Origin: Victivallales bacterium
GTDB lineage: Bacteria; Verrucomicrobiota; Lentisphaeria; Oligosphaerales; Oligosphaeraceae
Direction of reading: 5' to 3'
Assembly (NCBI GenBank): GCA_017417585.1
Contig: JAFPYX010000041.1
Coordinates: 1-64,000 of the forward strand
DNA length: 64,000 nucleotides
The position numbers and the translations under genes are program-made. The notes under the pieces are model-generated. The model did no database searches. It saw nothing but the letters and a program-made list of their open reading frames with translations, and was not told where the DNA came from. Of the stretch, positions 13,197 to 44,362 are shown piece after piece. Numbering within the stretch: position 1 is the first letter of the stretch; every line of letters begins with the position of its first letter.

Positions 13197-13262
13197 CCGG
13201 GTATTTGCCGGATTCCATTCAGCATTTCGCAGACGCCATCCGAATGGCTACGGTGCACTGAG

Positions 13263-28178: not shown

Positions 28179-28616
28179 ATGAAGACGTTCCTTCCCAAAG
28201 TTGATGAAATCGAGCGCAAGTGGTGGATCATCGATGCCGACCACCAGGTGCTCGGCCGCCTCGCTCGCGACATCGCGATGATTCTGCGCGGCAAGAACAA
28301 GCCCATTTTCACTCCGCATCTGGACTGTGGTGACTATGTGGTGGTCAAGAATGCCGCCAAGGTCGTGATGACCGGCCGCAAGAGCACCGACAAGGAATAC
28401 CAGGACTTCTCCGGCTGGGTGGACGGCCTGAAGCGCACCAAGGCGGATGTCATGCGCAAGAAGCACCCGGAGGAGCTTATTCTCCGCGCGGTGTGGGGCA
28501 TGATGCCCAATGGCCCGCTGGGCCGCGCCCAGTTCCGCAAGCTGAAGGTGTATGGCGGCGACCTGCCTGCCCACCAGTATGCCGCCCAGAATGCCCAGCC
28601 CCTCGAGATCAAGTAA
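28179..28616 (+). CDS. rplM: 50S ribosomal protein L13 (uL13)
   Basis: Early-assembly large-subunit protein, 145 residues. Diagnostic blocks: KWWIIDADHQVLGRLAR-IA, the GDYVVVKNA-KV-MTG-K segment, and RAVWGMMP-GPLGR-Q--KLKVY-G--HQ. It is transcribed with rpsI, as in most bacteria, with 25 bases between them. No Shine-Dalgarno sequence is visible before the ATG, unlike rpsI. Confidence 0.96.
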   Translation: MKTFLPKVDEIERKWWIIDADHQVLGRLARDIAMILRGKNKPIFTPHLDCGDYVVVKNAAKVVMTGRKSTDKEYQDFSGWVDGLKRTKADVMRKKHPEELILRAVWGMMPNGPLGRAQFRKLKVYGGDLPAHQYAAQNAQPLEIK

Positions 28617-28641
28617 TACTTAATTTTTGGATAAAGGAAAC

Positions 28642-29040
28642 ATGGCTCAAGACAGCGAACTGATTGTGACCATCGGGCGCCGCAAGTGCGCCAGCGCACG
28701 TGTCCGCATGACTCCGGGGTCCGGCGTCATCACCGTGAACAAGCGCGCCTACAACGACTACTTCACCACCGAGGCCATCCGCGGGTACATCGAGCAGCCG
28801 CTCGTGCTGACCGGCAAGACCGCCGATTTCGACATCTTCGCCCGCATCAATGGCGGTGGCGAGATGGGGCAGGCCGGCGCATTGCGCCACGGCATCGCCC
28901 GTGCGCTGGAGAAATACGACGAGACGCTGCGCCCCGTCCTCAAGAAGGCCGGCATGCTCACCCGTGACTCCCGCGAGAAGGAACGCAAGAAGCCCGGCCG
29001 TCCCGGTGCCCGCAAGCGCTTCCAGTTCAGCAAGCGTTAA
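28642..29040 (+). CDS. rpsI: 30S ribosomal protein S9 (uS9)
   Basis: Small-subunit head protein whose C-terminal tail reaches the P-site tRNA. The ATG at 28642 with AAAGGAA upstream gives 132 residues. It has [37 protein letters not shown] and the terminal [17 protein letters not shown] tail with the conserved final Lys-Arg. Confidence 0.96.
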
Positions 29041-29071
29041 TCCGCTGTTTCGTCTTGTCGAGTTTTCGTTG

Positions 29072-29115
29072 GCATCCGGCTGTCGTCTAAAAGAGGCGGC
29101 CGGGTGCTTTTTTTT
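29072..29115 (+). terminator. intrinsic terminator after rpsI
   Basis: GCATCCGGCTG (29072-29082) pairs with CGGCCGGGTGC (29097-29107) using two G-U pairs, followed by eight T residues. Confidence 0.85.
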
Positions 29116-29202
29116 ATCCTGTTGCTTTGCAGCAGCATCTACTGCGGAGCCGAACCCTTGGCCTTCACCCCAAGGCGCCGCTTTGGGCATAGGGCATTTC
29201 TC

Positions 29203-30231
29203 ATGGATAAAGTCAAAGTCGCAATCATCGGTGGGTCCGGTTATTCCGGCGAGGAACTTCTGCGGATTCTGAGCCGTCATCCCTTCGTGGAACTGACCGC
29301 CGTCACCAGCCGGGAGAATGCCGGCAAGCCGGTCGGCGAGTTCTTTCCGCGCTATGCGGAGTGTCCGCTGAAGTTCATCCAGCCGGATGTCGAGGAAATC
29401 GCACAACTGGCGGAAGTTGTCTTCCTCGCATTGCCCAACGGGCTGGCCGGCGACTATGCGAAGCCGCTCCTGGAGAAGGGCTGCAAGATTGTCGACATCT
29501 CGGCGGACTTCCGGCTGCGCGACCCCGCCGTCTATGAGAAATACTACAAGAAGGCGCATCCCGCGCCCGACTTGATTCCGCAGGCGGTCTATGGACTGCC
29601 CGAACTCTACCGCGAAGAGATCCGTGGTGCGCGTTTGATTGCGAACCCCGGCTGCTATGTGACCAGCATCCTGCTGCCGGCCACTGCGTTGCTGAAGGCG
29701 GGCGTGGCGGAGCCGGAGGGCATCGTCGCGATGTCGATGTCCGGCGTCAGCGGAGCCGGACGCAAGGTCGCGCTGGACTACATCTTCCCGGAGTGCAATG
29801 AGAACCTGAAGCCCTACGGCGTGGTGGGACACCGCCACCTGCCGGAGATCGAGCAGGAATTGGCGGTCGCCGCCGGCGTCCCGAAGGTCACGATGAATTT
29901 CCTTCCGCACCTGGTTCCGGTCAACCGCGGCATCCATTCCTCCATCCTGGTCACGCCAAAGCCCGGCAAGGCAAGCGCGGCGGCCGCTCTTGAGGCGCTT
30001 CACGCCGCCTACGACGACGAGCCGTTCGTGCGAGTCCTCGCCCCCGGCAAGCTTGCCGAGACCAAGCATGTCACCCTGACCAACATGTGCGAAATCGGCT
30101 GCGTCTATGACGAGCGCACCAACCGCCTCATCATCTCTAGTGCGATTGACAACCTCACCAAAGGCGCCTCCGGCCAGGCCGTCCAGAACCTCAACCTCAT
30201 GTGCGGCTTCCCCGAAACCACCGCACTGTAG
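29203..30231 (+). CDS. argC: N-acetyl-gamma-glutamyl-phosphate reductase
   Basis: Third step of arginine biosynthesis, NADPH-dependent reduction of N-acetylglutamyl phosphate. The ATG at 29203 gives 342 residues, the family norm; upstream in-frame starts would sit in the rpsI terminator. The dinucleotide motif is GGSGYSGEELLRIL, the catalytic cysteine C151 lies in NPGCYVT, and GVVGHRHLPEIEQEL and the NFLPHLVPVNRGI block are present. No other arg gene is adjacent. Confidence 0.95.
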   Translation: MDKVKVAIIGGSGYSGEELLRILSRHPFVELTAVTSRENAGKPVGEFFPRYAECPLKFIQPDVEEIAQLAEVVFLALPNGLAGDYAKPLLEKGCKIVDISADFRLRDPAVYEKYYKKAHPAPDLIPQAVYGLPELYREEIRGARLIANPGCYVTSILLPATALLKAGVAEPEGIVAMSMSGVSGAGRKVALDYIFPECNENLKPYGVVGHRHLPEIEQELAVAAGVPKVTMNFLPHLVPVNRGIHSSILVTPKPGKASAAAALEALHAAYDDEPFVRVLAPGKLAETKHVTLTNMCEIGCVYDERTNRLIISSAIDNLTKGASGQAVQNLNLMCGFPETTAL

Positions 30232-30374
30232 GGTGTCTCCCCATTGCGGTGCCATGCCGCCGGATCGGCGTGGTTGGTTCTTCCTTCCCCCCAGGAGACT
30301 GTAAAGTGCCTTTATCTTTTTCAGTGCGATAAGAGTCACGAATAATTCGCAAACGATCTTGCCGGGAGAACATC

Positions 30375-31277
30375 ATGAGCTTCGTTTATCAATGCCCCTA
30401 TTGCGGCCAGCAAATTCAGGGTGAAGAACAATGGGCAGGGCAACAGACGCAATGCCCCTATTGCGGCCAGGCGATTCTGATTCCCGCCCCCCCCATGCCG
30501 TTGTCCGGGGACTATTCCCCGTCGGCCATGAATCAGCTGATGGGGAATTATTCCTATAGCCAGACAGTCATGATGGAACCACCGTCCCCCGTCGTCTCGC
30601 TCCCGCCCAATCCGATGATTGGCGATATGCCAACGGCAGAGTCGGTCCGGAAATCATTGGGCAGGGTGTTCCTTCATATGATATTATGTATGATTGCCTT
30701 TGTCGGTTCGGTTGTCTTTGCGGTGATGACGGCGGCATTTACGCGGCAAGAAGAGATTTTGCCTCTTGTGGGAATCGGATTGGTTGGCAGTGTGATTTGG
30801 CTGGTGATTGAGGCGATTCTCTGGGGGGTGTTCTTTTTAATCTGGATTTTCCGCAGCTGGAAGCTGCTGCCTCCCGAAAGTCGCCGTTGTCCTCTGTGGG
30901 GAGGTAAAGTTTCTCCGGGCATGGCAGTCGGATTTCTGTTCATTCCCGTTTTCAATCTGTATTGGTTTCTGGTGGCATTCTACGGGTTGCCCTTTGCCTA
31001 CAAACGGTATCATGGGGTGGACAATGGAGGATGCCCGGTGTCAATTACATTGATGATTTTGCAGGTGGTCAATCTGCTGAATAATGTTGCTGTGCCCATT
31101 TTGCGCTATCATTATATTTCGAGAGTGGATGATTACGCGATGTTGTTGATTGGAGGCCTGCAGGCATTGCAAGGGATTCTGGGCATCGTCAGCTTCATTC
31201 TGACGATCATTCTCATGTGCAAGGTGAGAACGCAGGAAGTGAAGCTAGTGACAGAGGGGGCCACTCAGTTTTACTAA
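30375..31277 (+). CDS. double zinc-ribbon membrane protein at the head of the GTPase locus
   Basis: A 300-residue protein with an N-terminal pair of nearly identical CPYCGQ motifs (YQCPYCGQQI ... TQCPYCGQAI), forming a rubredoxin-type or double zinc knuckle. A Pro/Ser spacer follows, then at least four hydrophobic helices: about 95-120, 130-155, 190-215, and a C-terminal pair. The segment around 'FNLYWFLVAFYGLPFAYKRYHG' resembles four-helix membrane proteins often found with GYF or zinc-ribbon domains. It precedes the GAP1-N2 gene by 129 bases on the same strand. Its Gly-rich-free soluble part faces the cytoplasm by inference. GGGAGAA upstream is a reasonable ribosome-binding site. Confidence 0.6.
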   Translation: MSFVYQCPYCGQQIQGEEQWAGQQTQCPYCGQAILIPAPPMPLSGDYSPSAMNQLMGNYSYSQTVMMEPPSPVVSLPPNPMIGDMPTAESVRKSLGRVFLHMILCMIAFVGSVVFAVMTAAFTRQEEILPLVGIGLVGSVIWLVIEAILWGVFFLIWIFRSWKLLPPESRRCPLWGGKVSPGMAVGFLFIPVFNLYWFLVAFYGLPFAYKRYHGVDNGGCPVSITLMILQVVNLLNNVAVPILRYHYISRVDDYAMLLIGGLQALQGILGIVSFILTIILMCKVRTQEVKLVTEGATQFY

Positions 31278-31406
31278 AGGGGCTTGTTCTGGCGGCGACA
31301 GTTTCGCGAATTGCCTTACAAATGCCGCGTGGCATGTTCCTACGGTGAACCAAGTCCAGGCAAAGTCGCTTTCACAGTGATTGAACATTAAAGTTTTTGG
31401 ACAGCA

Positions 31407-33326
31407 ATGGCATACGAACTGATTTATACCTCTGTTCCGCACGGGCTGAAATTGGGCAGCAGCGGCTTTTGTACGGTTGCCATGACCAATGGCATGCCGT
31501 CTCCTCTGGCGCGGGTGATGGAGGGAATGACGGGATACAAGCCGTTGTATCCGATGAGTGATTCCAGGTTTGCCAACAATCCCCCCTCCTATTTCCATTA
31601 TTCGGTCAAAGTCGGTGGCAGTTCGTATGATGTCTGCGGACGGATATGTTCGTGTCCGATAGATTATACCGGTCGGACCAATAAAATAGCACATTTCATT
31701 GTTCCTGATGAGATGGAAAAGCAGCAGATGCCTTTGGGGGCGGCATCGCTTTCCGAAGAGATGTTCCGAACCGCATGGGCTGGAGAGCCACAGTCGATTC
31801 CCTCGCGGCTGGGGGTGCGACTGGCCAGTTTTACCATGGGGAAGGCGGTGGAATGGCAAAAAGCCACTGGCGATGCCGGATGGGCGGGGGTGCTTGCCCA
31901 GAGTTTCCTGAACAATCCACGGCAACGCGTCGTTATTTTGTTTGATCCGGAACACCCTGTCAATGCCCTTCAGCTTGTGCGCGAGGCAATTCAGCTGCTG
32001 CCGCCGCAAAGGCGCTGGGAGGTCGGCTATAACACCTGTGTGTCGAATGTGCCTTCCAATGTGGTTTCCCATTGGAATTTCTGCCCGAAGAACAATGATT
32101 TCATGCAGGCGGCAAACGTCATGCCCTCCCAGGTGCTGCTGGATTTGACGGCGCCTGCGGAGATTGCCGAGGAGACTCCGCTGGTGCAGGCGGCGCGGAG
32201 CGGAAAGGTGTCTGCGGTTCAGCCGCCACCACAGGCGCAGCCCAGGAATAATCCGTCAATGGCTGTTCCTGTGGGGGAGGGTGCCATTGGCCATTCGCCG
32301 AATGCCCGGCAGCCTTCTATTTCCGCCGGAGTTCCCGTGGATGCCCAAAGGCACGACAGGGGGCCTGTTGCGGGACTGCGTTTGGCACCCGTGCCGGGAA
32401 GCGTCGGTTATCCGCGTGGTGGGGAAAGGCTGGTCGCGGATTCCAATGGCGGCAAGGGCGTCAGGGTGCTTTGCCTGGTGCTGTCGCTTTTGGTTGTGCT
32501 GCTTCTCTCGCTGACACTTGGTCTTGGATACCTCTATTACCAGACGCGCCTGGATCTGGAGCGGTATGCCGCGCAGATGGATAATGACTCGCAAACTGCG
32601 GCGGACGCGAACGAGACCAAAATCCTGAAGCAGCCGGATGAATCGGAAGAACCTGAGGACAAGCCGGAAGTTGTTGATTCCCCGGAAGAAGACACGGGTT
32701 CAGCCTCTGAAGGCGAACATGATGAACAACCTATTGCGCATCAAGAGGGAGAGGGAACAGTTGTCCCGTTGGGTAACGTGGGCAAGGAAGCAGGAAATGG
32801 TGGGGAAACCCTTCAAGCCAAACCGAAGGCGAACGCCCAGGCGACAACGCCTGATGGCGCCGACGGAACCTCTCTGGGCCTTCTCAGTGCAGGAGATGGG
32901 CCGTTGGCTGGCGATTCCGAAGCCGCCCAAAGCCCCGCCAAAGGTGAAGCCAAGGCTTCGGAAGAAGATTGGGGCGAAAGGATTGAGAAGTTGAAGAAGG
33001 ATTTGAAAAATGACTTTGGAGACTTACAGGACTTTGAAGCTGTCTGGCGTCTTTTGCAATGGAAAGATGACGAAATCCAGAGACATTTTGTGGAGTTGAT
33101 TGAAAGCTTGAGCGGGAAATATGAGGCAACGAAGAAACTACTTGATAATGTGTCATCTGATCTGGAATCGAAAAATGACGAACTTCAGGAACAGGTGGTC
33201 AAATATAACCTTCTTGAACAAAAGAAAAATGCGCTGGACCAACAGATAAGAAATTGGCACAAAACTTGGGATAACCCCTCCGAACTTCAGAAACGAATAA
33301 ACCAATTAAATAATCAACAAAAGTAA
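31407..33326 (+). CDS. GAP1-N2 domain membrane protein (GTPase-associated)
   Basis: A 639-residue, three-part protein. Residues 1 to about 260 match the 'GTPase-associated protein 1, N-terminal type 2' (GAP1-N2) pattern: ELIYTSVPHGLKLGSSGFCTV, SPLARVMEGMTGY, a YSVKVGG strand, and RRWEVGYNT / HWNF blocks. A Pro-rich spacer leads to one transmembrane helix at about 354-376 (CLVLSLLVVLLLSLTLGLGY). Then come an acidic low-complexity region and a C-terminal coiled coil (about 520-639). GAP1-N2 domains are reported next to TRAFAC-type double GTPases in predicted conflict systems. The GTPase gene follows after 15 bases, so the two are probably co-translated. Family assignment is from motif memory. 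Confidence 0.75.
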   Translation: MAYELIYTSVPHGLKLGSSGFCTVAMTNGMPSPLARVMEGMTGYKPLYPMSDSRFANNPPSYFHYSVKVGGSSYDVCGRICSCPIDYTGRTNKIAHFIVPDEMEKQQMPLGAASLSEEMFRTAWAGEPQSIPSRLGVRLASFTMGKAVEWQKATGDAGWAGVLAQSFLNNPRQRVVILFDPEHPVNALQLVREAIQLLPPQRRWEVGYNTCVSNVPSNVVSHWNFCPKNNDFMQAANVMPSQVLLDLTAPAEIAEETPLVQAARSGKVSAVQPPPQAQPRNNPSMAVPVGEGAIGHSPNARQPSISAGVPVDAQRHDRGPVAGLRLAPVPGSVGYPRGGERLVADSNGGKGVRVLCLVLSLLVVLLLSLTLGLGYLYYQTRLDLERYAAQMDNDSQTAADANETKILKQPDESEEPEDKPEVVDSPEEDTGSASEGEHDEQPIAHQEGEGTVVPLGNVGKEAGNGGETLQAKPKANAQATTPDGADGTSLGLLSAGDGPLAGDSEAAQSPAKGEAKASEEDWGERIEKLKKDLKNDFGDLQDFEAVWRLLQWKDDEIQRHFVELIESLSGKYEATKKLLDNVSSDLESKNDELQEQVVKYNLLEQKKNALDQQIRNWHKTWDNPSELQKRINQLNNQQK

Positions 33327-33341
33327 CAATCAGGCCTCCCC

Positions 33342-35465
33342 ATGAATAATCCATTTGTTTATCTGAACGTGAATGGCCAGAGTTCGGGGCCATACACAAT
33401 GGAACAGTGTGCCCAGATGCTGGCCAACGGACAGATCATGACCTCGACGATGGCCTCCATTGGAGGTGGCGCCTGGGTGCCTCTGAACGCGAGCGGCTAT
33501 TGGGGACAGCTCGTCCAGCTGTCGTCCGTCAGGAGCCAGCGTACTGTGATCCATGCTCCGTCTTCGCTGGGAGGCGGGCAGCCGGTGATGGGGGGCACTG
33601 CCGTACCAGTGCAGCCGGTGATGGGGGGACAGCCGACGCCTCCTCCGGGTTTTGGCGCCGCAGCCATCCCAGTTCAGCCAATGGGCGTTCGTCCGGTGAT
33701 GCCTGTGCCTCCTCCTCCGGTTTTTGGCACTGCGGCCATCCCAGTTCAGCCGATGGGCGTTCGTCCTGCGATTCCAGTTCAGCCGATGGTCGTTCGTCCG
33801 ACGATTCCAGTGCAGCCGATTGCTGTCGGCGGTCCAGTATCAACGCCGTTCGTGCCCGGCATGGGAACGCCGGTTGCTCGTCCTGGAGTGCCAAATCCCG
33901 TGTTTTCCCCTGTGGCTTCGACATTGTCCGGTGACGGTTTTTCCTTTGTCTCAAACGTCGGCGGGGTAAATCCGATTCAACGGGATGAGTTTTCCGGGAA
34001 TGTCACGGCGGCGGAGTCCTATCTGGAGCCAGAGGATATGGAATTGGAGGAGGACGAAAACTCCCCGCAGATGCTCTGCATGCATTGCTGGTATCTTTTC
34101 CGGCAGGCGCGAATCAGATATATCTCTCGGCATCCGGATTTGCTTGGTGATTCCGTGCTGGGGCCGTCTGCGCAAAGACGTTTTCTCCCGAGGAAGTTCA
34201 ATGCCAACGACGAGGCCTTGGATGATCGCGGAGTCGCCTGCACCGAGATGGCCTGCCCCCGCTGCCACCTGGCGATTCCCGGAGTTATTCTGGAAAATCC
34301 CAGCTCGCTGCTCTCCATCGTCGGCGCCCCTTCCGCCGGAAAGTCCTATTTCCTTACGGCGATGATCCACAGTTTGAAGAAATCCCTGGGTGAACTCAAT
34401 TTTGCCCTTGAGGATGCGGATCCGACGCATAATATGGTGCTGAGCCACTACGAGGAACTGCTCTTTGAAAACCGGAAAGTTGACCAGTTTGTAGCGCTGC
34501 CGAAGACAGAGTTGCAAGGCGATGGCTTCTCCAGCCAGACCCAGATCGACGGCATGACGGTCGAGTTGCCGCTTCCTTTTGTCTATACGCTACGGACGAT
34601 GATGAACACCAACTTCAGGCCGCATAACCTGGTGTTCTACGACAACGCTGGAGAGCAGTTCGAGCCAGGGCGGGATTTCCTGACCCGCATGGCGACCAAC
34701 CACCTTTTGCAGTCCAACTGCATTTTCTTCCTTTTCGATCCGTTTAAGGACAACCGGACGGTAGGCAAGTGCTCGAGCGAGGATCCACAGGCCGGTGCTA
34801 TGCAACGGTTTGCCAACCAGCTGCAGATTTTCAACGAGATGGTAAACCGAATCCGGCAGAAGTCAGGCGGCGCTTCGAACCGACAGTATTCGACGCCGCT
34901 GGTGGTGCTGGTGCCCAAATACGATGCCTGGAAAAACTCCTTTGCACTGGATCTCTCCGACACCTCGGTCATCGGATATGGCGAAGACAAGCAGCCGGCA
35001 TTGAACATGAGCGTGATAACCCTCACTTCCTTCTTGCTGAGGAATTGGTTGCGCGAACTGGTGCCGGAACTGGTCAGCGGAGCGGAGACCGTTTTCCAGG
35101 AGGTCTATTACCTGCCAGTGTCTGCACTCGGGCAATCCCCGACGCTGGATCCGAAGACACAGATGCTGAGCGTGAAGGCGGAGGTCATCCAGTCGGTCTG
35201 GGCGGATGTGCCGTTGCTCTTTTACCTATGGCATGATGGATTCCTGCCCGGAGTCCGTTGCAGCGTGGCGGAAAAGGTGTCTCCTGTGGATGAGTATTGC
35301 CGGTTTGAAGACGGTACGATGATCTTTTCTCCGCCAAACCGCAAGCCGATGATGATCCCTCAAATCTACTGGGGACAGGAAGTCCATGACGAGGAATTGG
35401 GGTTCATTCGCTTCCCGCAGGGGGAGACGGCTGGCTCGGAAGACGGGGCTGATTTTCATTTCTAG
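33342..35465 (+). CDS. GYF-like / zinc / double-GTPase (TRAFAC) protein
   Basis: A 707-residue protein. Residues 1-60 resemble the GYF_2 adaptor domain (VYLNVNGQSSGPYTMEQ...GAWVPL). A 33-nt-type repeat encodes IPVQPMGVRP-like units at about 105-175. Paired cysteines C246/C249 and C300/C305/C308 form a probable zinc treble clef. The GTPase core follows: P-loop GAPSAGKS (328-335), switch II DNAGEQ (D434-E438), and VPKYDAW (K526, D528) in place of NKxD. The size and order fit the 'DO-GTPase2' TRAFAC clade. It has no transmembrane helix, so it is cytosolic, and is likely the regulatory switch for the membrane components around it. Confidence 0.78.
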   Translation: MNNPFVYLNVNGQSSGPYTMEQCAQMLANGQIMTSTMASIGGGAWVPLNASGYWGQLVQLSSVRSQRTVIHAPSSLGGGQPVMGGTAVPVQPVMGGQPTPPPGFGAAAIPVQPMGVRPVMPVPPPPVFGTAAIPVQPMGVRPAIPVQPMVVRPTIPVQPIAVGGPVSTPFVPGMGTPVARPGVPNPVFSPVASTLSGDGFSFVSNVGGVNPIQRDEFSGNVTAAESYLEPEDMELEEDENSPQMLCMHCWYLFRQARIRYISRHPDLLGDSVLGPSAQRRFLPRKFNANDEALDDRGVACTEMACPRCHLAIPGVILENPSSLLSIVGAPSAGKSYFLTAMIHSLKKSLGELNFALEDADPTHNMVLSHYEELLFENRKVDQFVALPKTELQGDGFSSQTQIDGMTVELPLPFVYTLRTMMNTNFRPHNLVFYDNAGEQFEPGRDFLTRMATNHLLQSNCIFFLFDPFKDNRTVGKCSSEDPQAGAMQRFANQLQIFNEMVNRIRQKSGGASNRQYSTPLVVLVPKYDAWKNSFALDLSDTSVIGYGEDKQPALNMSVITLTSFLLRNWLRELVPELVSGAETVFQEVYYLPVSALGQSPTLDPKTQMLSVKAEVIQSVWADVPLLFYLWHDGFLPGVRCSVAEKVSPVDEYCRFEDGTMIFSPPNRKPMMIPQIYWGQEVHDEELGFIRFPQGETAGSEDGADFHF

Positions 35466-35615
35466 GCCCGTTTGACCGGGATGGCCGGACGATTCGGGAG
35501 ATGCCTTTCCCCGCACGGGCGGACAGGTCGTGGGACACCGCCTTCCGCATCCCACAGGGGGATTCACATTTTCATAAATCGCTCATCAATACGATTAAAC
35601 AGGTAGGTTTCAGAA

Positions 35616-38600
35616 ATGCTGTCGGGAAACAACCAGGAATTGTCCGTGTTGCTGCGCAAATATCGTGCGCTGGTGAAAACGGGAAGTGTCGAGGAAAAGG
35701 TGTTGCTGGCTCGACAGATTTTATGCTTGCAGCCAAATGACAACGACTGGAGAGAAACTCTTCGCACCTTGGAAAACCAATGGCAGAAGGAGCTGATGGT
35801 CGAGGCGCAGACTGCGATTCAGGCGCGGAATGATGGCAAGATGGAGGAACTCTGGGAGAGGTTGTCCAATGATCCTTGGTTGGTCAAGCCTACCGGTCCT
35901 CTTATGGAGGAGCTGAGGAGGAAGGTTGTTCCGAATCAGAGACCGACGCCGGCGCCACGATGGTCTGAGGCTTCGGAAATCCGGCAGAGCAATGCCGCCA
36001 GCTCCAAGACGGAGAAGGAGGATGACGGGGAAGTCCAGCGGCTGCTGAGCAAATATCGGCGGCTGGTGCATGGCGGGTCGGTGGCGGATAAAATCGCAAT
36101 TGCCAAGCAGATTCTGAATGCCAGGCCGGAAGATGTTTCGTGGCGTTCTACGCTCCGGGAACTGGAGGGGGCCTTGAAAAATGAATTGACGGAGGAGGCC
36201 AAGGAGGCAATCCGCAAAGGAGATGTCATTGAACTGGAGCGGATTCATGAGGTGCTTGCGCAGGGCGAGTGGCAAGTTCCGCCACAACCCGAGGCGATGG
36301 CTAAAATCGAGGAAATGCTAGCCCAATTGCATCAGAGGCAATGGGAACAGGAGGGGCAGGCCATCTGCGATCGTCTTGACCAGCAGTACCGCGATGACCT
36401 GGAAGGCGGTTTGGATAAAATGGCGGGATGGTTCGAAGAGTGGGACAATCTGCGGAAGGAACATCCGTCGTTTGTGCCGACAGAGGAGCAGGAGAGGCTC
36501 CTGGCGGTGATTCGGCCCAATTGGCAGGGGATTTACCAGGAACGTCAGCGGGAAGAGGCCGCAGACCGAGACTATGCAAGGCTGACCACGCAATTGGAAC
36601 AGGCCATCAAAAAGGGTGCGTCGCAAAAGGAGCTCCTGGAAATCTATGACGGTCTGGAACGGCTGGATCGAGATATGCCTGAAACTCTCCTGCAACGGTA
36701 TGACACCGCCTTGGAACAGGCGCGTACAAAGGAACATCGCCGGGCGGTGATTACAAGGGTGATCTGGGTGTTGATTCTGCTGATGGTGGGTGGAGCGGTA
36801 TTCTTTGGTTTCCGAGAATGGTCGATTCGGGAATTGACCGGTCGGTATTCCAGTCTGCTGAACCCGATCTTGACGGACCCGACGCGGGATGCCGCCGAGG
36901 CCGAGGCCATCTTCGCGGAGATGAAAGAACGCCAGGAGGCGTTGCTGGGGCGTCCTGAATTCAAGGAGGCGCTAAAGCAGTTGGGACAGAAGAAGGAAAA
37001 CCAGGCCGCCAATTCCGCCAGAATGCAGCTGTGCGGCAGCGAATTGCGGGAGCTGCTTCCGCATTACCGGGAAAACCGTCAGCGGATCGCAGAACTGCGG
37101 AAGGAACTGCAGGATTTGCCGCTGGTGCCGGAAATGGCCGAGGAACGTCAGAAAATCCTGGAGGACTACGAACAGGCGGCGAAGCAGTTTGTGGAGTACC
37201 AGGACCGCAAGCATCTGGAATTGCTGAGCGGGCTCCAGCAAAAGTACATGGATTTCAACGCCCTGCTGGAAAATGGCGAGGATCTTGCAAAGGCCAGGGA
37301 AATGCTGGCTGAAATGGATGACGTCTTGAGGATGGCGGACAAGATTGAGGACGTTTCGGACAGAGAGCGGACAGATGGTGAAAAATGGCAGAGCCGCCTG
37401 GAACGGGCCGCGGGTGAGCTGGAACAGCAGGAGAGGCTGGCGGGGGTTCTGGATACGATTCTTCCAACTTTGAATTCTCTGAAGGAATTGGTGGCCTTCG
37501 GGGAGGAGTTGTCCTTTGAACCGAATGTGGAAACGAAAGAAATAATCGACTCCCGGTTTGCATCCGATTTCTCTCCGGAGCGTTTGAATGGACTCATCGC
37601 ACGGGGGGAGGAAGCCCTGGCGCAGGGGCAGGATAAGAACAGCCTGATCCAGCAGACGGGTTCTCCGCGTGGGCGGACGATTCTGATGGAATTGGACGAG
37701 CAGCTGGGAAGAGCCAGGTCGCTGGCGGAAAAATACACCAGTTATGAATCTCTGCTGAAGGAACAGGCAGATGGCATCTGGGAGGTGGACAATATAAAGA
37801 GCTTGCAGGAGGCCGTGGATGGCTTTTTGGCTGTCGCGCCACGAGTCTTGCCGGTCACGCGGGAAATTCAGCGTTTCAAGAACGAGCAACTCCGACCGTT
37901 GTTCAAGTTGAAGGAACCGGATCCAAGAATGGTGCTCTTCGATGAAATGGAGCAGGCGTGGAAAGGCTTCCTGAAGCAGAAGTCCGCCGAGGTGCCTGTC
38001 TATTACATGATTTCCCTGCAGGGAAAAGTCAAAGTCAAAGGACAAAGCGATTACACCAATCGGTTCTTCAATCTGTTTTTCAGTGAAGACGCCCTGCGGA
38101 GTTTTAGCTCGAACATGAATTCCTTCAATTTCCTAGTCATCAAATCCAGCCGCGGTAGGAACCTGGATGAGGTGTTCATGGAAATCGACTTGAGAACCTA
38201 CCAAGGCAAATGGCACTACTCTGTCAACCGGGAAGAAGTCATTGCCACACCCCGCAACCCGTCGATATTGGACCAGCTGAATGCTCGCCGGGTGCAGACG
38301 CAGCTCCTGGCACCGCATTGCCGCTGGCTGGAGGATGCCTTGGAGCGAAGCAAGAAGCGGACCGCCGACGACCTGCCGTTGCTGGGGGACGCAGACACCT
38401 TCGCATTCCTTGAAAGGCTGTTAGATGGCTTTGACCAGGATGCGCCATATCCCCGGGCGATCATGGCGGAAGGGCTGTTGAAGGCATTGCTGGATGGCAA
38501 GGCGGCAAAAGAGGCCGAGGCGGCGCAGGTGCCGTTCGTGGTGTCCTTGAGGGGACTTCAGCAGGACATCCATAAGCTGCTGCAGGATTATGGATTGGCC

Positions 38601-38963
38601 AACCAGTGGGAACAACGGCACGCAGTGGGGGATGATGGAACCATGCTGCTGTCCGAGGAATTGGCCAAGCTTGGAAAGCGTCTGCCCGAGATTGGAAAAC
38701 AGGCTGCGGACTATCTTGAAACGGTCGCGTTCCTGTTTGTCGAGGCTGGGGGCATCTACTGGAACTATACGAATGAAAAATACGAACGGCTCGATTTTGT
38801 CTTGCCGGAGAATCTCCTTCCCCAGCAAAAGAAAAGGCTTTTTTACTTGAATCCGAGTGACAATTCCATGTTGCAATACAGCGTTGTACAACCAGACGGA
38901 TGGCGAGTCAACAATGCAGTTCAAGACGCTTGCCGACATCTCATCCTCTACTACAAAAAATGA
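35616..38963 (+). CDS. 1115-residue helical membrane protein of the GTPase locus
   Basis: I recognise no named family. The protein is almost entirely Glu/Gln/Leu/Arg-rich helix with one transmembrane segment at about 380-402 (VIWVLILLMVGGAVFFGF). The N-terminal 200 residues contain a duplicated module of about 85 residues: LLRKYRALVKTGSVEEK...ARQIL and LLSKYRRLVHGGSVADK...AKQIL, each continuing into W-x-TLRxLE. Residues 400-800 are long coiled coil; the last 300 residues are more globular (YYMISLQGKVKVKG, RNLDEVFMEIDLRTYQGKWHY). The stop codon overlaps the next start as ATGA, so it is translationally coupled to the channel gene. A scaffold or load-bearing tail is my inference. Confidence 0.65.
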   Translation: MLSGNNQELSVLLRKYRALVKTGSVEEKVLLARQILCLQPNDNDWRETLRTLENQWQKELMVEAQTAIQARNDGKMEELWERLSNDPWLVKPTGPLMEELRRKVVPNQRPTPAPRWSEASEIRQSNAASSKTEKEDDGEVQRLLSKYRRLVHGGSVADKIAIAKQILNARPEDVSWRSTLRELEGALKNELTEEAKEAIRKGDVIELERIHEVLAQGEWQVPPQPEAMAKIEEMLAQLHQRQWEQEGQAICDRLDQQYRDDLEGGLDKMAGWFEEWDNLRKEHPSFVPTEEQERLLAVIRPNWQGIYQERQREEAADRDYARLTTQLEQAIKKGASQKELLEIYDGLERLDRDMPETLLQRYDTALEQARTKEHRRAVITRVIWVLILLMVGGAVFFGFREWSIRELTGRYSSLLNPILTDPTRDAAEAEAIFAEMKERQEALLGRPEFKEALKQLGQKKENQAANSARMQLCGSELRELLPHYRENRQRIAELRKELQDLPLVPEMAEERQKILEDYEQAAKQFVEYQDRKHLELLSGLQQKYMDFNALLENGEDLAKAREMLAEMDDVLRMADKIEDVSDRERTDGEKWQSRLERAAGELEQQERLAGVLDTILPTLNSLKELVAFGEELSFEPNVETKEIIDSRFASDFSPERLNGLIARGEEALAQGQDKNSLIQQTGSPRGRTILMELDEQLGRARSLAEKYTSYESLLKEQADGIWEVDNIKSLQEAVDGFLAVAPRVLPVTREIQRFKNEQLRPLFKLKEPDPRMVLFDEMEQAWKGFLKQKSAEVPVYYMISLQGKVKVKGQSDYTNRFFNLFFSEDALRSFSSNMNSFNFLVIKSSRGRNLDEVFMEIDLRTYQGKWHYSVNREEVIATPRNPSILDQLNARRVQTQLLAPHCRWLEDALERSKKRTADDLPLLGDADTFAFLERLLDGFDQDAPYPRAIMAEGLLKALLDGKAAKEAEAAQVPFVVSLRGLQQDIHKLLQDYGLANQWEQRHAVGDDGTMLLSEELAKLGKRLPEIGKQAADYLETVAFLFVEAGGIYWNYTNEKYERLDFVLPENLLPQQKKRLFYLNPSDNSMLQYSVVQPDGWRVNNAVQDACRHLILYYKK

Positions 38964-39859
38964 ACATGAGAACGAAAAAGAAGTACGAGCTGAATTTCGA
39001 TTCCCTGGATCCGGAAGCGTCCCTGGGCATGACGGGAAAGAAATACACTGCCGTGAACAACTGGTTTGCCATGTTCCTGGGAGCCGCGTTCACGGGGGTG
39101 TTTTATCTGATCCTGTATCCCTTCTATGCCCGGGGGGGCGGCCAGATGATACAGATGTTCTTCCACGGCGGCGCGGCTAACCGAAGCACCGTCCCGTATT
39201 ACACCATGTTCCTGACTTTCTGGTGCCTGGCGTTCCTTCTGCTGAAATGGAAGAAACTGGCGGTCCAGCGAAGGGCGTTGAGTGTGCAAGTGGTTCCCGG
39301 ACAGTTCTCCAACTATGTCATCTCGCGCATGAATGCCCGCGACATCATTACTGGAATCCACAACCGGGTCTATGGCAGCGAACATTTCATGGCATTGTGG
39401 AGAATCGAATGCGCCCTAGGCAACCTGGACAATATCGGGCATGTCTCGGAAGTGTCGGCTGTCATGAACGACCTGGCGGAAAACGACGCGAATTTCATGG
39501 AAAGCACCTACACTTTCCCGAAAGGACTCATCTGGGCAATCCCGGTTCTCGGATTCATCGGCACGGTGCTGGGCCTCTCGCAGGCAGTCGGCGGTTTCGG
39601 CGCGGTGGTCGCCAGCGGCGCCGATTTGGAGACCCTGAAGGTGTCGCTCTCCAATGTCACGTCCGGCCTGGGGATCGCCTTTGAAACGACCCTGATCGCA
39701 CTGGTCGCCGCGCTGGTGATCCAGCTGTTGATGACACTGCTGATCCAAAAGGAGGAGGAATTCCTGGATGCGTGTTCCGGATACTGCTACGACAACGTGA
39801 CTTCACGGCTTCGCGTGGACGAAGTGATTCCGGTGGCCGTCCCTGAACAGATGCAATAA
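38960..39859 (+). CDS. MotA/TolQ/ExbB-family proton channel subunit
   Basis: Inner-membrane stator-type subunit, 299 residues from the ATG at 38960, whose ATGA overlaps the previous stop. TM1 (about 28-50) and TM2 (about 75-95) precede a long cytoplasmic loop. The conserved ExbB/TolQ/MotA core then follows: FPKGLIWAIPVLGFIGTVLG (TM3) and LSNVTSGLGIAFETTLIALVAALVIQLLMTLL (TM4). The family forms pentamers around a dimeric MotB/ExbD-type partner and converts proton flow into rotation or force. The two following genes supply plausible partners. A role in flagella is unlikely because no motility genes are nearby. Confidence 0.85.
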   Translation: MNMRTKKKYELNFDSLDPEASLGMTGKKYTAVNNWFAMFLGAAFTGVFYLILYPFYARGGGQMIQMFFHGGAANRSTVPYYTMFLTFWCLAFLLLKWKKLAVQRRALSVQVVPGQFSNYVISRMNARDIITGIHNRVYGSEHFMALWRIECALGNLDNIGHVSEVSAVMNDLAENDANFMESTYTFPKGLIWAIPVLGFIGTVLGLSQAVGGFGAVVASGADLETLKVSLSNVTSGLGIAFETTLIALVAALVIQLLMTLLIQKEEEFLDACSGYCYDNVTSRLRVDEVIPVAVPEQMQ

Positions 39860-39879
39860 TCGTCCTGCAGGATACGACA

Positions 39880-40761
39880 ATGCGGAATCGGGGAGTCCCA
39901 ATCAGCCTTTTCTCCTTTCAGGATATCATCACGTCGTTGACGGGGGTGATGATCATTGGCATTTTGGTCATTGCCTTGCAGCTGGTGGATTCGATTCGGA
40001 AAAAGCAGGCCACGCCGCCACTGGATCCTGAATTCGAGGAAATGCAGCGCGAGTTGGCGGAATTGCGTCGACAACTCCAGATGTATTCCGAGACGGAGAT
40101 GGAAGAGCCGGATGAACGGCTGGAGGAATTCCGCAATCAAAGTCTGGAACAGCTGAACTTGCGTCTGGAACAGGAAAGGCAGCTGGTCGAAAAGCGCCGG
40201 GAGACCGTGGACAATCTCAGGAACAATGCGGAGGCCATGAACGAGGAGACGAAGCGATTGGCTGAGGAGGAGGCCGAAAGGCACCAGAAAAACCGCGCGG
40301 AGCTGGAGCAGGTGCTGGAAGAGATTCGCTCGAAGATGGCTGAACTGAAGACTGAGGAGGAAAAGACGCTGGCGAGGAGTCGCCAGCTGAAAGAGGAACG
40401 CAATCAAATCCAGGATGCGATTGCACAAAAACAAAGGAAGTTGGAATTTGCCTTCATTGGCAACAGGACGCATACTCCGATTCTGGTGGAATGCACCCGG
40501 CAGGGGTTCCGGGCGGCGATTTATCCGCCGGACAAGGCGGAAATCCTGGATTTCCAGGGGAAGGATTTCCATTCCAACTTGCGTGATTTGACCCATTGGC
40601 TGAAGCAATTCGATTTCTCACGGTATTATCCGGTGCTGCTTTATCGGGATGGCTCTTTGGAGAACTCGGAGGAAATCGAGGGGGAAATCAAAAAACTTTC
40701 TCCCGCGATCAAACTTGGGCGCGACCCCGTGAGCATGTCCGTCGAGATCTTCCCGAAGTAG
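39880..40761 (+). CDS. ExbD/MotB-like single-TM coiled-coil protein A
   Basis: A 293-residue protein with a short N-terminal cytoplasmic stretch, then FSFQDIITSLTGVMIIGILVIALQL. D15 sits at the beginning of the single helix, as the essential proton-carrying Asp does in ExbD, TolR and MotB. Residues 45-190 are a strongly charged coiled coil. The last 100 residues are globular (HTPILVECTRQGFRAAIYP ... RYYPVLLYRDGS) and resemble no peptidoglycan-binding OmpA domain. It starts 20 bases after the channel gene. The partner role is inferred from topology and gene order. Confidence 0.65.
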   Translation: MRNRGVPISLFSFQDIITSLTGVMIIGILVIALQLVDSIRKKQATPPLDPEFEEMQRELAELRRQLQMYSETEMEEPDERLEEFRNQSLEQLNLRLEQERQLVEKRRETVDNLRNNAEAMNEETKRLAEEEAERHQKNRAELEQVLEEIRSKMAELKTEEEKTLARSRQLKEERNQIQDAIAQKQRKLEFAFIGNRTHTPILVECTRQGFRAAIYPPDKAEILDFQGKDFHSNLRDLTHWLKQFDFSRYYPVLLYRDGSLENSEEIEGEIKKLSPAIKLGRDPVSMSVEIFPK

Positions 40762-40785
40762 AATGATTTCAAACTCTTGAACTGT

Positions 40786-41715
40786 ATGGCCAAGAAGAAA
40801 TCCGAGTCACTTCCTTCCAGCCTGGAGCTGTTGCTTGACACGATGTGCAATACCTTCGGGGGAATTATGTTCATCGCGATCGCGCTGGTCATCGTGACGC
40901 AGTTCGCCTCCAAGTCGGTGATGGAGAGCATCACGAAATTGCCAACGCCAGAGGAAAAGGAGGCGCTGCGGCGGCAGCTGGCTGAGCTGCAGCTCGAGGT
41001 CCATGAGGTGGAGCAGAAACGCATCAATGCTCAAATGGACCGAATGGGCTTTGAACCCGAAGCGGTGGCGGTGGTTCGCCAGATTCTGGAGACACGGGAG
41101 GAACTGCAGGCCGCCATGGAGGAGGAACTGGAGGCGAAACAGCTTTTGCAGGACGCACAGGAGGAGCAGAATAAACTGGATGACCAGGCGGTGGCCAATC
41201 AGGAAGAGCTGAAGGTATTGCAGGAAGAGCAGCTGGAGGCGATGGAGCAACTTCGCAGGGAAGAGCGGATCCTGGAAATGGCAAAGGCCGAAATGAAGGA
41301 ATTGCAGCAGGCTTGCCAGGACTTGAAAAAAAAGTTGGCCAGCACCAAGCCGGCCCAGACGATTACCTTCTCGATGGAAATAGATCGCTCGCCTGTCGAT
41401 GAAATGACTATTTTTATCAATCATGGGCGGTTCTATACGGCTTCGGATGTTTCCACCGAAGAGTTGGGAGGGGACCAGTTTCGGGTTAGGTTCCCCGCTG
41501 GACGCGGTCATGGCGCCTCCGCCGACGAGATCAGCAGGGTTTTCAGCTCGAAATCGAGCGGAACTGTCCATATCTGGGTGGGCGATCAGAGCTTCAATAC
41601 GTTGGTTGAGGTTCGTAACTTTTTGCGCGGCAAAAAGATTCCCGTAAGCTGGGAGTATTGTTCTGAGTTTACCTTTGTCCGAAGCAGCAATGTTCACCGC
41701 GGGGTCTCGTTCTAA
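40786..41715 (+). CDS. ExbD/MotB-like single-TM coiled-coil protein B
   Basis: A 309-residue protein built like its upstream neighbour: short basic N-tail, then LELLLDTMCNTFGGIMFIAIALVIV, with D18 at the membrane edge. It continues into a coiled coil to about residue 185 and a small C-terminal domain (TITFSMEIDRSPVDEMTIFINHGRFY ... GTVHIWVGDQSFN). The LLDTxCNTFGG signature recurs in proteins encoded beside MotA/TolQ/ExbB-like genes, to my recollection. I chose the ATG at 40786 over the in-frame TTG at 40777. The two paralogous partners could form a heterodimer inside the channel pentamer. Confidence 0.65.
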   Translation: MAKKKSESLPSSLELLLDTMCNTFGGIMFIAIALVIVTQFASKSVMESITKLPTPEEKEALRRQLAELQLEVHEVEQKRINAQMDRMGFEPEAVAVVRQILETREELQAAMEEELEAKQLLQDAQEEQNKLDDQAVANQEELKVLQEEQLEAMEQLRREERILEMAKAEMKELQQACQDLKKKLASTKPAQTITFSMEIDRSPVDEMTIFINHGRFYTASDVSTEELGGDQFRVRFPAGRGHGASADEISRVFSSKSSGTVHIWVGDQSFNTLVEVRNFLRGKKIPVSWEYCSEFTFVRSSNVHRGVSF

Positions 41716-41797
41716 GTCGATATCAATTGACTGGAAATCATAACTCCCCAGTTGCACCGGAATACGCGTGGACAATTGCACGGCTTGGTTGCAAGTG

Positions 41798-41830
41798 ATT
41801 TTGCAAAATTCGTGCTATATTTTGCAAAAT
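41798..41830. promoter_or_regulatory. paired palindromic operator upstream of the HTH gene
   Basis: Two identical perfect 12-bp palindromes ATTTTGCAAAAT lie at 41798-41809 and 41819-41830, centres exactly 21 bp apart (two helical turns). A TATATT -10-like element (41816-41821) overlaps the second copy. Binding of the adjacent HTH protein would block transcription, a standard autorepression layout. Confidence 0.7.
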
Positions 41831-41860
41831 GCTTGCAGTTTTGTTTTTTTCTGTGAAAAC

Positions 41861-42283
41861 ATGGCAAATGGCGATCAAAACATCCTGGGACAGCAGTTGC
41901 GGTATTTCCGCAAGAAGCTGAATTTGAAGCAGACGGAGATGGCGAAGCGGCTGGGGGTGTCAATGAGCCTGTATTCCAAGCTGGAGTCGGGGCAGATTGC
42001 GACTACGCCACGGCGACTGGAGAAATTCGCCTCGCAATTGCAGACGAGCGTGGAGTTCCTCACGACGGGGCAGGGGGCCGAGCATGTGGAAAAATATACC
42101 ACGGCACTTGGCTCGGACGAGTTGAGTCGCCTTTCGCTGGATGCGCTGGATAGGCTGGTGACTCTGTCGCAGGATCCAAAGTTGGTCAAGCTGGCGGAAC
42201 AGGTGGCTCCCACGTTGCGCGTGGCTCCGTCGCGTGCGCTGGCGGTGGTGATTCGCACCATCCTGATGGGGACGCAATCGTAG
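41861..42283 (+). CDS. Xre/Cro-type HTH transcriptional regulator
   Basis: A 140-residue protein with an HTH_3 domain in residues 10-65: LGQQLRYFRKKLNLKQTEMAKRLGVSMSLYSKLESG, the classic Cro/CI helix-turn-helix. The C-terminal half is helical and lacks a recognisable ligand domain. I chose the ATG at 41861; the longer frame upstream would run through the two operator palindromes. It sits between the GTPase locus and the esterase gene and could regulate either, or only itself. Confidence 0.85.
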   Translation: MANGDQNILGQQLRYFRKKLNLKQTEMAKRLGVSMSLYSKLESGQIATTPRRLEKFASQLQTSVEFLTTGQGAEHVEKYTTALGSDELSRLSLDALDRLVTLSQDPKLVKLAEQVAPTLRVAPSRALAVVIRTILMGTQS

Positions 42284-42329
42284 ATTTTTTTGTAACTTGT
42301 TCATGATAAATTAGTTAGGAGTTTTCTTG

Positions 42330-44345
42330 ATGTTGAGGTTGGCAAGTTTGTTTGTGGATGGCGCGGTGGTTCAGCGCGAGATGCCCATCGTAGTGTGGGG
42401 ATGGTGCGCTCCGCGCGTGCTGGTGAAGGCGACGCTCGCCACAAGCACGGCGACTGCACCATCGTCGCTGGACGGTCGTTTCGAGGTTCGTTTGCCGTCC
42501 TTGCCGGCGGGAGGTCCCTACACGCTTGAAGTTGTTGCAGGCGAGGAGACTGTCGTGGTGAAGGATGTTCTGGTGGGTGAGGTCTGGCTGGCTTCCGGTC
42601 AGTCGAACATGGAGTTCCCATTGGCGACTTTCAATCTGGACGACCCGCAGGAGCAGACCGACCAGTACCTTGCCGAGGGCGGGGTGGATCCGCTGCTTCG
42701 CATGGTGACCATTCCGCACCAGTCGATGGGCACGGTGGAGACCGTGGTGGAGCCGCCGCTAACTTGGGTGAAGTCCGGCGATGACCGCGCGACGACGCGG
42801 GCGTTCAGCGCGGTGGGCGCATGGTTCGCGCTGGCGTTGCGCAAACAGCTTGGCGTGCCGGTGGGCATCATCCATTCTAGCTGGGGCGGCACCTACGCGC
42901 ACGCCTGGACCAGCCGCGAGATGCTGCGTCGCCTGGAATGCCGTAAGGCGATGATTGCCAGGCAGGATGCGGATTTCAACGATGCCGCAACCTGGTCGAT
43001 TCCCAATCTGCGGCTCGAAGGGCAACCGCTGGAAGGCAGCACGCTCCCACAGGACTTCGACAAGGTCACCCACAAGGATACGGGGAACCAGGGCTTCGGC
43101 TGGGGCTGGGCCGCCCCCGAGTTCGACGACTCCGGCTGGAAGCTCTTCCAGGTGCCGGGTTCCTGGAAAGGGCAGGAGATTGCCAAGCTGGGCGCGCTCT
43201 GGGCGCGACTGGCCGTCGAACTTCCGCCGGAGTGGGCAGGGCGGGATCTCGTGCTGCATCTGGGCGGCATCGACAAGCACGACCAGACCTACTTCAACGG
43301 CGAGCTGGTCGGTGCGACCGGAAAGGACTACGACGAGATGTACTGGAATTGCCCGCGCGAATACCGCATTCCGGGGCGCCTGGTGAAGGGCGGTCGAAAT
43401 GTTCTTGCCGTGCGCGCCTTCAGCTTCTACTTCGACGGCGCGTTCACCGGCGCGGAGGAGAACTACCGTCTGGAACTGGCGGACCGTCCGTCAGAATGCA
43501 TTGAGTTGGCGGGGGACTGGAGGGCCTACCCGGAATACGAGCTGGATGTCTATATGCCGCAGGGAGATGGCACCAACTACACGCCGTTCAATCCGAACGC
43601 ATGCCATACGCTCTTCGACGGCATGATCGCTCCGCTGATTCCCTACACGCTGCGCGGTGCGCTCTGGTACCAGGGCGAGACCGACCACAACACGATGAAT
43701 TTCGCACGTGAATACGAGGTCACTCTGCCCGCGATGGTCGAGGACTGGCGCTTCCGCTGGGGGCAGGGCGACTTCCCCTTCTACTTCGTGCAGATCTCCG
43801 GCTGGGCGGACACCGATGTCTATGGCAAGGACATCGACTGGCGGAAGCTCTCGGCGTGGAGCGTAGTCCAGGATGTGCAGCGCCGCTGCGTGGACTTGAT
43901 TCCGAACTCCGGGATGATCGCCACGGGCGACATCAGCGAGGCCCACGACATCCATCCGCACAACAAGCGCGACTATGGCAAGCGTTTGGCGCGGTTGGCG
44001 TTGCATTACACCTACCATGTGCCTGGTGTGGTGCCGGAGGGACCGCGCTTCCGCGAGGCACGGCCGGAGGGCGCCAGCCTGCGAGTGCTCTTCGACTACG
44101 CCGAGGGGCTCCATGCGCTTGACGGCAAGCCCGTCAAGGGCTTTGAAATCGCAGGATTGGACCGCAGGTTCGCTCCGGCCGAGATGCGCATCGAGGGGAC
44201 GAGCGTGGTGCTGACCTCGCCGGAGGTTCCCGCTCCGCAGTATGTCCGCTACAACTGGAAGCCATGGCCGGGAAACGACTGCGGATTCCTGGTCAACGGC
44301 GAGAACCTGCCGTGCCCGGTCTTCTGCAGCATAAAACTCTGGTAA
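42330..44345 (+). CDS. sialate O-acetylesterase-type (SASA) hydrolase
   Basis: A 671-residue SGNH-fold carbohydrate esterase. The catalytic Ser is S92 in the GQSNME motif, WYQGETD is the second SASA block, and DIHPHNKRDYGKRLA carries the Asp/His pair. A beta-sandwich insertion of about 150 residues between blocks (WGWAAPEFDDSGWK...) resembles the galactose-binding/jelly-roll insert common in this family. There is no signal peptide, so it would act in the cytoplasm on imported acetylated sugars or on xylan-type substrates; specificity cannot be read. AGGAG lies 10 bases before the ATG at 42330. An HTH gene precedes it. Confidence 0.88.
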   Translation: MLRLASLFVDGAVVQREMPIVVWGWCAPRVLVKATLATSTATAPSSLDGRFEVRLPSLPAGGPYTLEVVAGEETVVVKDVLVGEVWLASGQSNMEFPLATFNLDDPQEQTDQYLAEGGVDPLLRMVTIPHQSMGTVETVVEPPLTWVKSGDDRATTRAFSAVGAWFALALRKQLGVPVGIIHSSWGGTYAHAWTSREMLRRLECRKAMIARQDADFNDAATWSIPNLRLEGQPLEGSTLPQDFDKVTHKDTGNQGFGWGWAAPEFDDSGWKLFQVPGSWKGQEIAKLGALWARLAVELPPEWAGRDLVLHLGGIDKHDQTYFNGELVGATGKDYDEMYWNCPREYRIPGRLVKGGRNVLAVRAFSFYFDGAFTGAEENYRLELADRPSECIELAGDWRAYPEYELDVYMPQGDGTNYTPFNPNACHTLFDGMIAPLIPYTLRGALWYQGETDHNTMNFAREYEVTLPAMVEDWRFRWGQGDFPFYFVQISGWADTDVYGKDIDWRKLSAWSVVQDVQRRCVDLIPNSGMIATGDISEAHDIHPHNKRDYGKRLARLALHYTYHVPGVVPEGPRFREARPEGASLRVLFDYAEGLHALDGKPVKGFEIAGLDRRFAPAEMRIEGTSVVLTSPEVPAPQYVRYNWKPWPGNDCGFLVNGENLPCPVFCSIKLW

Positions 44346-44362
44346 CCTGAAACGGAGAAACG

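Follow-up and report, generated by a model that had tools for sequence, protein, structure and literature searches.

Seven genes lie on the + strand at positions 30375-41715 of a 64,000-nt stretch of contig JAFPYX010000041.1 from a Victivallales bacterium; this whole stretch is called the window here, and the genes are called g1 to g7 (table). They join a GTPase module, consisting of a GAP1-N2 membrane protein (g2), a GTPase (g3) and a large helical membrane protein (g4), to a stator-like channel subunit of the MotA/TolQ/ExbB family (g5) and two small membrane proteins bearing an aspartate (g6 and g7). All seven co-directional open reading frames reported in a preliminary description of this DNA are present on the + strand, at the coordinates given there. 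The successive gaps from g1 to g7 are 129, 15, 150, -4, 20 and 15 bases, and the overlap of g4 and g5 is an ATGA. Tight packing with gaps of 15, 20 and 24 bases had been described; the first two and the overlap hold, but the 24-base gap between g6 and g7 appears only if g7 starts at the alternative ATG (40786) and not at the TTG (40777), and g1-g2 (129) and g3-g4 (150) are not closely spaced.

Table. Features of the locus in the window (TM, transmembrane; aa, amino acids).
Feature	Positions	Strand	Basis or remark
Accessory block	30230..41789	.	without counterpart in same-genus genome G001 (blastn)
Possible promoter, just 5' of g1	30318..30346	+	consensus scan only, 9/12 matches; no evidence of function
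g1, zinc ribbon and multi-TM protein, optional component	30375..31277	+	
g2, GAP1-N2/GAP1-M one-TM protein	31407..33326	+	Pfam, hydropathy
g3, GYF/zinc-ribbon protein of DO-GTPase kind	33342..35465	+	Pfam, motif conservation
g4, 1115 aa helical one-TM protein	35616..38963	+	hydropathy, AlphaFold2
g5, MotA/TolQ/ExbB channel subunit	38960..39859	+	Pfam, hhalign, invariant residues
g6, one-TM Asp-bearing subunit	39880..40761	+	invariant Asp, homology to g7
g7, one-TM Asp-bearing subunit, possible TolR-like C-domain	40777..41715	+	invariant Asp, AlphaFold2, Foldseek

Searching the genome_contigs collection with an alignment of g5 revealed 52 loci, mostly from Lentisphaerae, with some from Planctomycetes and three from bins labelled as deltaproteobacteria (L071, L087 and L092). 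A scan of the collection with g3 as a single-protein query gave no matches. The 35 loci in which the sequence reached at least 7 kb upstream of g5 and at least 2.5 kb downstream of it were regarded as evaluable, and g2, g3, g4, g6 and g7 were all found near g5 in 33 of them, sometimes reordered. The two exceptions are L067, which is cut by a contig end, and L092, which is discussed below. The set is kept in other families of the window's phylum (L130-L133), its order is changed in L094, L095 and L133, and the GTPase gene precedes the GAP1 gene in most loci, so that the window has the swapped order. The cultured Victivallis vadensis DSM 14823 (L069) carries a complete locus. Conservation is highest in g5 (51-67%) and in the TM segments of g6 and g7 (45-71%), followed by the zinc ribbon, the G domain and the GAP1 domains. 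Thus, the co-occurrence in other Lentisphaerae and Planctomycetes genomes that the preliminary description had called for is found, and the proposed joining of a GTPase module to a stator-like channel is borne out by this co-occurrence and by the profile matches described below. The number of genes has to be revised, because only three g1-type matches were found among the relatives, one of them (L039) directly upstream of the GTPase gene; g1 is optional and the conserved unit is the six genes g2 to g7.

The block is present or absent as a whole. Among genomes of the same genus, G002 carries a fragment of it and none was detected in G001 and G003. In G001, L113 1-1794 corresponds to window 28383-30229 (argC) with 87.5% identity and L113 1830-4619 corresponds to window 41790-44526 with 90.4% identity (blastn). 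Therefore, argC is followed by about 35 bp and then by the sequence beginning at window position 41790, and the entire 11.6-kb block is missing, indicating that it was gained or lost as a unit. Six genes kept together across bacteria of the Planctomycetes-Verrucomicrobia-Chlamydiae (PVC) group, together with a close relative that has no block, suggest a real accessory machine. In the g5 tree, sequences group mainly by phylum, a pattern that speaks against rampant transfer. By guanine-cytosine content (54.7% in the block, 57.2% in the window) the block does not stand out as foreign, and terminal repeats, looked for at its ends, were not found. In the window the block is flanked by rplM-rpsI-argC and a sialate esterase gene. 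A helix-turn-helix gene (41768-42283) just downstream of g7 is kept at the empty site of G001 and hence lies outside the accessory block.

Profile searches revealed that g5 has a MotA_ExbB domain (Pfam 1.7e-7, above the cut-off) and is homologous to the TolQ/ExbB proteins of its own genome (hhalign 96.5%, E 7.9e-10); it also matches ZorA3 profiles at 6.5e-7 (PADLOC), and a PDB sequence search gave weak TolQ matches only. The protein has 299 residues and four TM regions by hydropathy, the last ending near residue 262 and followed by a short C-terminal tail. Thr202 (39563-39565) and Thr243/244 (39686-39691) are invariant in 45 of 45 aligned sequences, and in our reading of the alignment T202 and one of T243/T244 would occupy the positions of the ExbB channel threonines. 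The single TM segment of g6 carries the motif SLFSFQDIITS including Asp15 (39922-39924), which is invariant in 45 of 45 sequences, and is followed by a coiled coil and a C-terminal domain. g7 likewise has one TM segment and a coiled coil; its motif SLELLLDTMCNTFGG includes Asp21 (40837-40839), invariant in 43 of 43 aligned sequences; the one exception, beyond these 43, is the g7 homologue of L129. The two proteins are homologous along their full length (hhalign 99.4%), and their coiled coils span about 130-150 residues. The AlphaFold2 model of g7 is confident (predicted local distance difference test, pLDDT, 89), and its C-domain (41380-41709) may be TolR-like: the first-ranked Foldseek match in the PDB, a weak one, is E. 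coli TolR 5by4 (prob 0.85). Pfam revealed no OmpA domain in g6 or g7, and four further, ordinary ExbB/TolQ-type loci are present in the same genome.

The other half of the locus carries the GTPase. In g2, GAP1-N2 (31407-31805; Pfam 2.6e-21) and GAP1-M (31851-32150; 2.9e-10), both above the cut-off, precede a single TM segment (32466-32522, hydropathy), after which come an acidic linker and a predicted coiled coil. g3 begins with GYF_2 (33360-33485; Pfam 7.6e-6, above the cut-off), followed by a zinc ribbon (34077-34265), whose four cysteines are invariant among the relatives, and by the G-domain motifs: P-loop (34323-34346), DNAGE (34641-34655) and KxD (34917-34925). The P-loop, DN[AS]GE and KxD residues are invariant in 49 of 49 relatives, except for the P-loop serine (48 of 49). 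The DO-GTPase2 match of g3 itself (3.8e-4) is below the Pfam cut-off, which the relatives L098 and L048 pass, and Pfam gave no match to the Ras/MglA family. By these motifs g3 holds one G domain of DO-GTPase kind; "double GTPase" is the name of the family and does not mean two domains, so the "GTPase pair" of the preliminary description has to be dropped. Its assignments to GAP1-N2, GYF, DO-GTPase and MotA/ExbB families are otherwise confirmed, including the profile similarity to GAP1 and ExbB on which it had made its proposal depend, as are the 1115-residue helical membrane protein and two single-TM proteins with a membrane aspartate. In g4, helical repeats precede one TM segment (36747-36803, hydropathy), a long helical region and two small beta domains. 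Spliceosome, dynein and tetratricopeptide-repeat Foldseek matches of g4 were discarded as helical noise, and PDB sequence searches with g4, g6 and g7 gave just coiled-coil or helical noise. The N-termini of g2 and g4 are probably cytoplasmic. g1 has two CxxC zinc-ribbon motifs, about five TM helices and a weak resemblance to DUF4328. No fn3 (fibronectin type III, FNIII, repeat) match was found in g2 to g7 at E<=1, or in g1 among the 25 of 26 matches listed.

The GTPase core is also found apart from the stator. Outside the stator set, g3 relatives are near-universal across the window's order, mostly with one copy per genome, and on stretches that are long enough they belong to a g3-g2-g4 core like that of the stator loci. 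Each of the five sister loci tested (L047:8958-17812, L045, L048, L052 and L054), none of which has a channel gene, encodes a PilM/Amuc_1101-like protein (E 5e-15 to 3.6e-26) immediately after this core. This suggests that g3-g2-g4 is a switch module that may couple to alternative envelope platforms. Several sister loci have a further small protein after the PilM-like one, with a weak GspM resemblance in L047. The sister DO-GTPase at L048:9176-11605 has an FHA domain where the window protein has GYF, which suggests possible phospho-dependent recruitment. In many relatives with the stator, the interval between g4 and g5 holds a GYF protein to which a trypsin-like domain, a PrsW protease or other TM regions are fused, such as the GYF-zinc ribbon-trypsin and GYF-PrsW genes of L061:4848-6206 and L067:8592-9980 and the TM2 variant of L070; the window carries g1 in place of such genes. 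vWA genes often follow, and vWA, PP2C and kinase domains are encoded in the flanks. Planctomycete GAP1-N2 systems have GYF-trypsin and GYF-TM partners, and vWA, PP2C and kinase domains are linked to some GAP1-N2 loci (Kaur et al. 2020, PMC7159879). Stand-alone stators of a separate and more distant family (L136-L138 and L121-L123) have a g5 of about 380-500 residues, some with an N-terminal zinc ribbon, and no GTPase was found near them. In L136, L137, L138, L121 and L123 the g6-like subunit has SLFPFLS or SLFPFMS, in which Ser replaces Asp, and the g7-like subunits found in this family keep Asp. In the Desulfamplus bin L092 (9965-13437), a small MMR_HSR1-type GTPase gene (12835-13437) lies two genes downstream of g5-g6.

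On balance, we think that the locus encodes an accessory, GTPase-controlled and ion-driven transenvelope machine. g5 would form a MotA/TolQ/ExbB-type channel ring, and g6 and g7 together would be the Asp-bearing partner of this ring, anchored in the periplasm and probably heterodimeric, as has been proposed for AglR-AglQ-AglS. g3 may be a membrane-proximal GTP switch whose zinc ribbon and GYF parts dock on g2 at its cytoplasmic GAP1 domains and on g4 at its helical repeats, and these two proteins, with one membrane crossing each, would pass the state of the switch, and perhaps the force of the motor, to the periplasm. The data show the set of genes with their homologies, the conservation of catalytic and channel residues, the joint inheritance and the presence or absence of the block as a whole, and from these we infer complex formation, a 5:2 stoichiometry, the ion type, the topology and the gating by GTP. 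Several observations weigh against this picture. It is co-occurrence alone that suggests gating by GTP. L092 has only g5 and g6 and no GTPase core, and L135 has a lone g5-g6-g7 trio; thus, the stator can exist alone. In the g7 homologue L129:5307-6212, Gly replaces the membrane Asp (LLLGPMCNTFGG) and the g6 partner keeps it, which possibly reflects different tasks of the two subunits. The TolR fold match of g7 is weak (E 0.021), PF02472 (ExbD/TolR) has no Pfam match in g6 or g7, and hhalign of both against the ExbD/TolR of their own genome, with a profile of 4 sequences only, gave no match. The AlphaFold2 model of g4 (pLDDT 76.6) has a low predicted template modelling score (0.42), and Foldseek found no fold match for it in the PDB at E<=0.001.

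What the machine would do is less clear: envelope or surface work has an even chance, phage or competitor defence is a weaker though serious candidate, and some other role is unlikely. A surface or envelope machine for gliding, adhesion, or polymer or lipoprotein transport, in which the GTPase sets where and when the motor engages as in Agl-Glt, is one functional outcome of the transenvelope machine and not a competing mechanism. We hold this form of it only tentatively. The subunit plan with a GTPase switch as in AglRQS/MglA (PMC3169522), several long coiled-coil membrane proteins and the tie of the sister core to PilM/GspM-like proteins fit it, but the patchy presence even inside one genus and the lack of an identified outer-membrane partner in the locus do not. 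Defence is the rival role, and conflict functions have been predicted for GAP1-N2/DO-GTPase modules (Kaur et al. 2020, PMC7159879). The patchy distribution and the empty site agree with this, as they would with any accessory trait. We scanned 100 flanking proteins of the loci with PADLOC (1e-15) and found no defence enrichment; each PADLOC family was matched by one of the 100 proteins, mostly by kinase-type PD-T4-6 models, so these flanks are not defence islands and that idea is unsupported. The conflict role of the preliminary description keeps its patchiness and empty site but has against it the flanks and the sister core tied to a PilM-like protein.

One form of the defence role is a Zorya-like motor, in which infection would set the stator in motion by perturbing the envelope, and a signal would pass through the GTPase/GAP1 arm to an unlinked or protease-type effector. 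ZorAB is an ion-driven 5:2 motor that recruits an effector (PMC11890865), GYF-trypsin, GYF-PrsW and vWA genes lie beside many relatives, and the locus is present or absent as a unit. This form is nevertheless unlikely: g5 lacks a long cytoplasmic tail, Pfam showed neither an OmpA domain nor a protease gene in the window operon, and the context is not that of a defence island. As the preliminary description had noted, no nuclease is present; neither a nuclease nor another effector domain was recognised in the operon (Pfam, PADLOC). It had concluded that the effector might be the channel itself, the activated GTPase opening g5-g6-g7 to depolarise an infected cell. The predicted conflict role, the patchy distribution with its clean empty site, the ZorA3 matches and the missing effector domain agree with such a pore, but the flanks, which in the window are rplM-rpsI-argC and the sialate esterase, show no defence enrichment, the sister core lacks a channel and is paired with a PilM-like protein, and the two conserved Asp residues and the TolR-like domain would be superfluous for a leak. 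The conserved Asp and Thr motor residues, the TolR-like domain and the PilM alternative together favour an energised envelope machine, and depolarisation is unsupported and appears improbable. Chance neighbours, or co-transcribed genes with separate functions, would account for the stators of L092 and L135 but are hardly credible, because all five partner genes accompany g5 in 33 of 35 evaluable loci over two phyla, rearranged orders included.

It is possible, though somewhat doubtful, that these loci represent an undescribed PVC class of GTP-gated ion-driven machines, in which DO-GTPase, GAP1 protein and g4 plug into a TolQR-like stator or a PilM-like pilus platform. If the transenvelope machine is real, the orphan DO-GTPase/GAP1 family gains a concrete mechanical partner, and GTPase-controlled ion motors have a second lineage besides MglA/AglRQS. 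The six-gene unit of V. vadensis DSM 14823 lets the predicted conflict role of GAP1-N2 be weighed against an envelope-machine role.

Among known systems, the GAP1-N2 systems (PMC7159879) share with the locus a GAP1-N2 and GAP1-M protein with a later TM segment beside a zinc-ribbon DO-GTPase, and relatives of the window locus carry their GYF-trypsin and GYF-TM genes. Unlike them, the window locus lacks an FNIII-repeat protein and has g4 as well as a MotA/TolQ/ExbB stator that includes two Asp subunits. The text of PMC7159879, figures and supplements aside, where earlier notice is possible, does not mention ExbB, MotA, TolQ, TolR, ExbD, stator or PilM. DO-GTPase/GAP1-N2 literature found comprised this paper and a single mention in PMC11237479, neither text with a MotA/ExbB link; the word "GTPase" is absent from a survey of MotAB homologues (PMC12505986), and we found no published GTPase-stator link of this kind, again leaving figures and supplements aside. 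Literature on GYF/zinc GltJ-MglA yielded nothing usable. With Zorya the locus shares a MotA-like channel and Asp subunits as an accessory locus, as well as the ZorA3 similarity. However, g5 has no long ZorA cytoplasmic tail, g6 and g7 have no ZorB OmpA-type peptidoglycan-binding domain, no ZorC/D/E-type or ZorFG partner is present, and no ZorB-ZorG model matched g1 to g7 at E<=0.1 (PADLOC), which places the locus outside the Zorya family invoked in the preliminary description. TolQR/ExbBD shares the channel family and the conserved Thr and Asp, and the g7 C-domain may have a TolR-like fold, whereas a GTPase module and a pair of differing Asp subunits, each with a coiled coil, are particular to the window locus. 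In Myxococcus AglRQS/MglA, a GTPase switch goes with one TolQ-like and two TolR-like subunits (PMC3169522) and with links to envelope-spanning proteins, a plan that the locus appears to follow. In contrast to it, the window GTPase is of DO-GTPase kind and not of Ras/MglA type by Pfam, no window protein matches a Glt family (NCBIfam), and the coiled coils of g6 and g7 are long, with no ExbD sequence match detected for either protein. AglRQS under MglA is the closest working analogy, one that does not extend to the ancestry of the GTPase.

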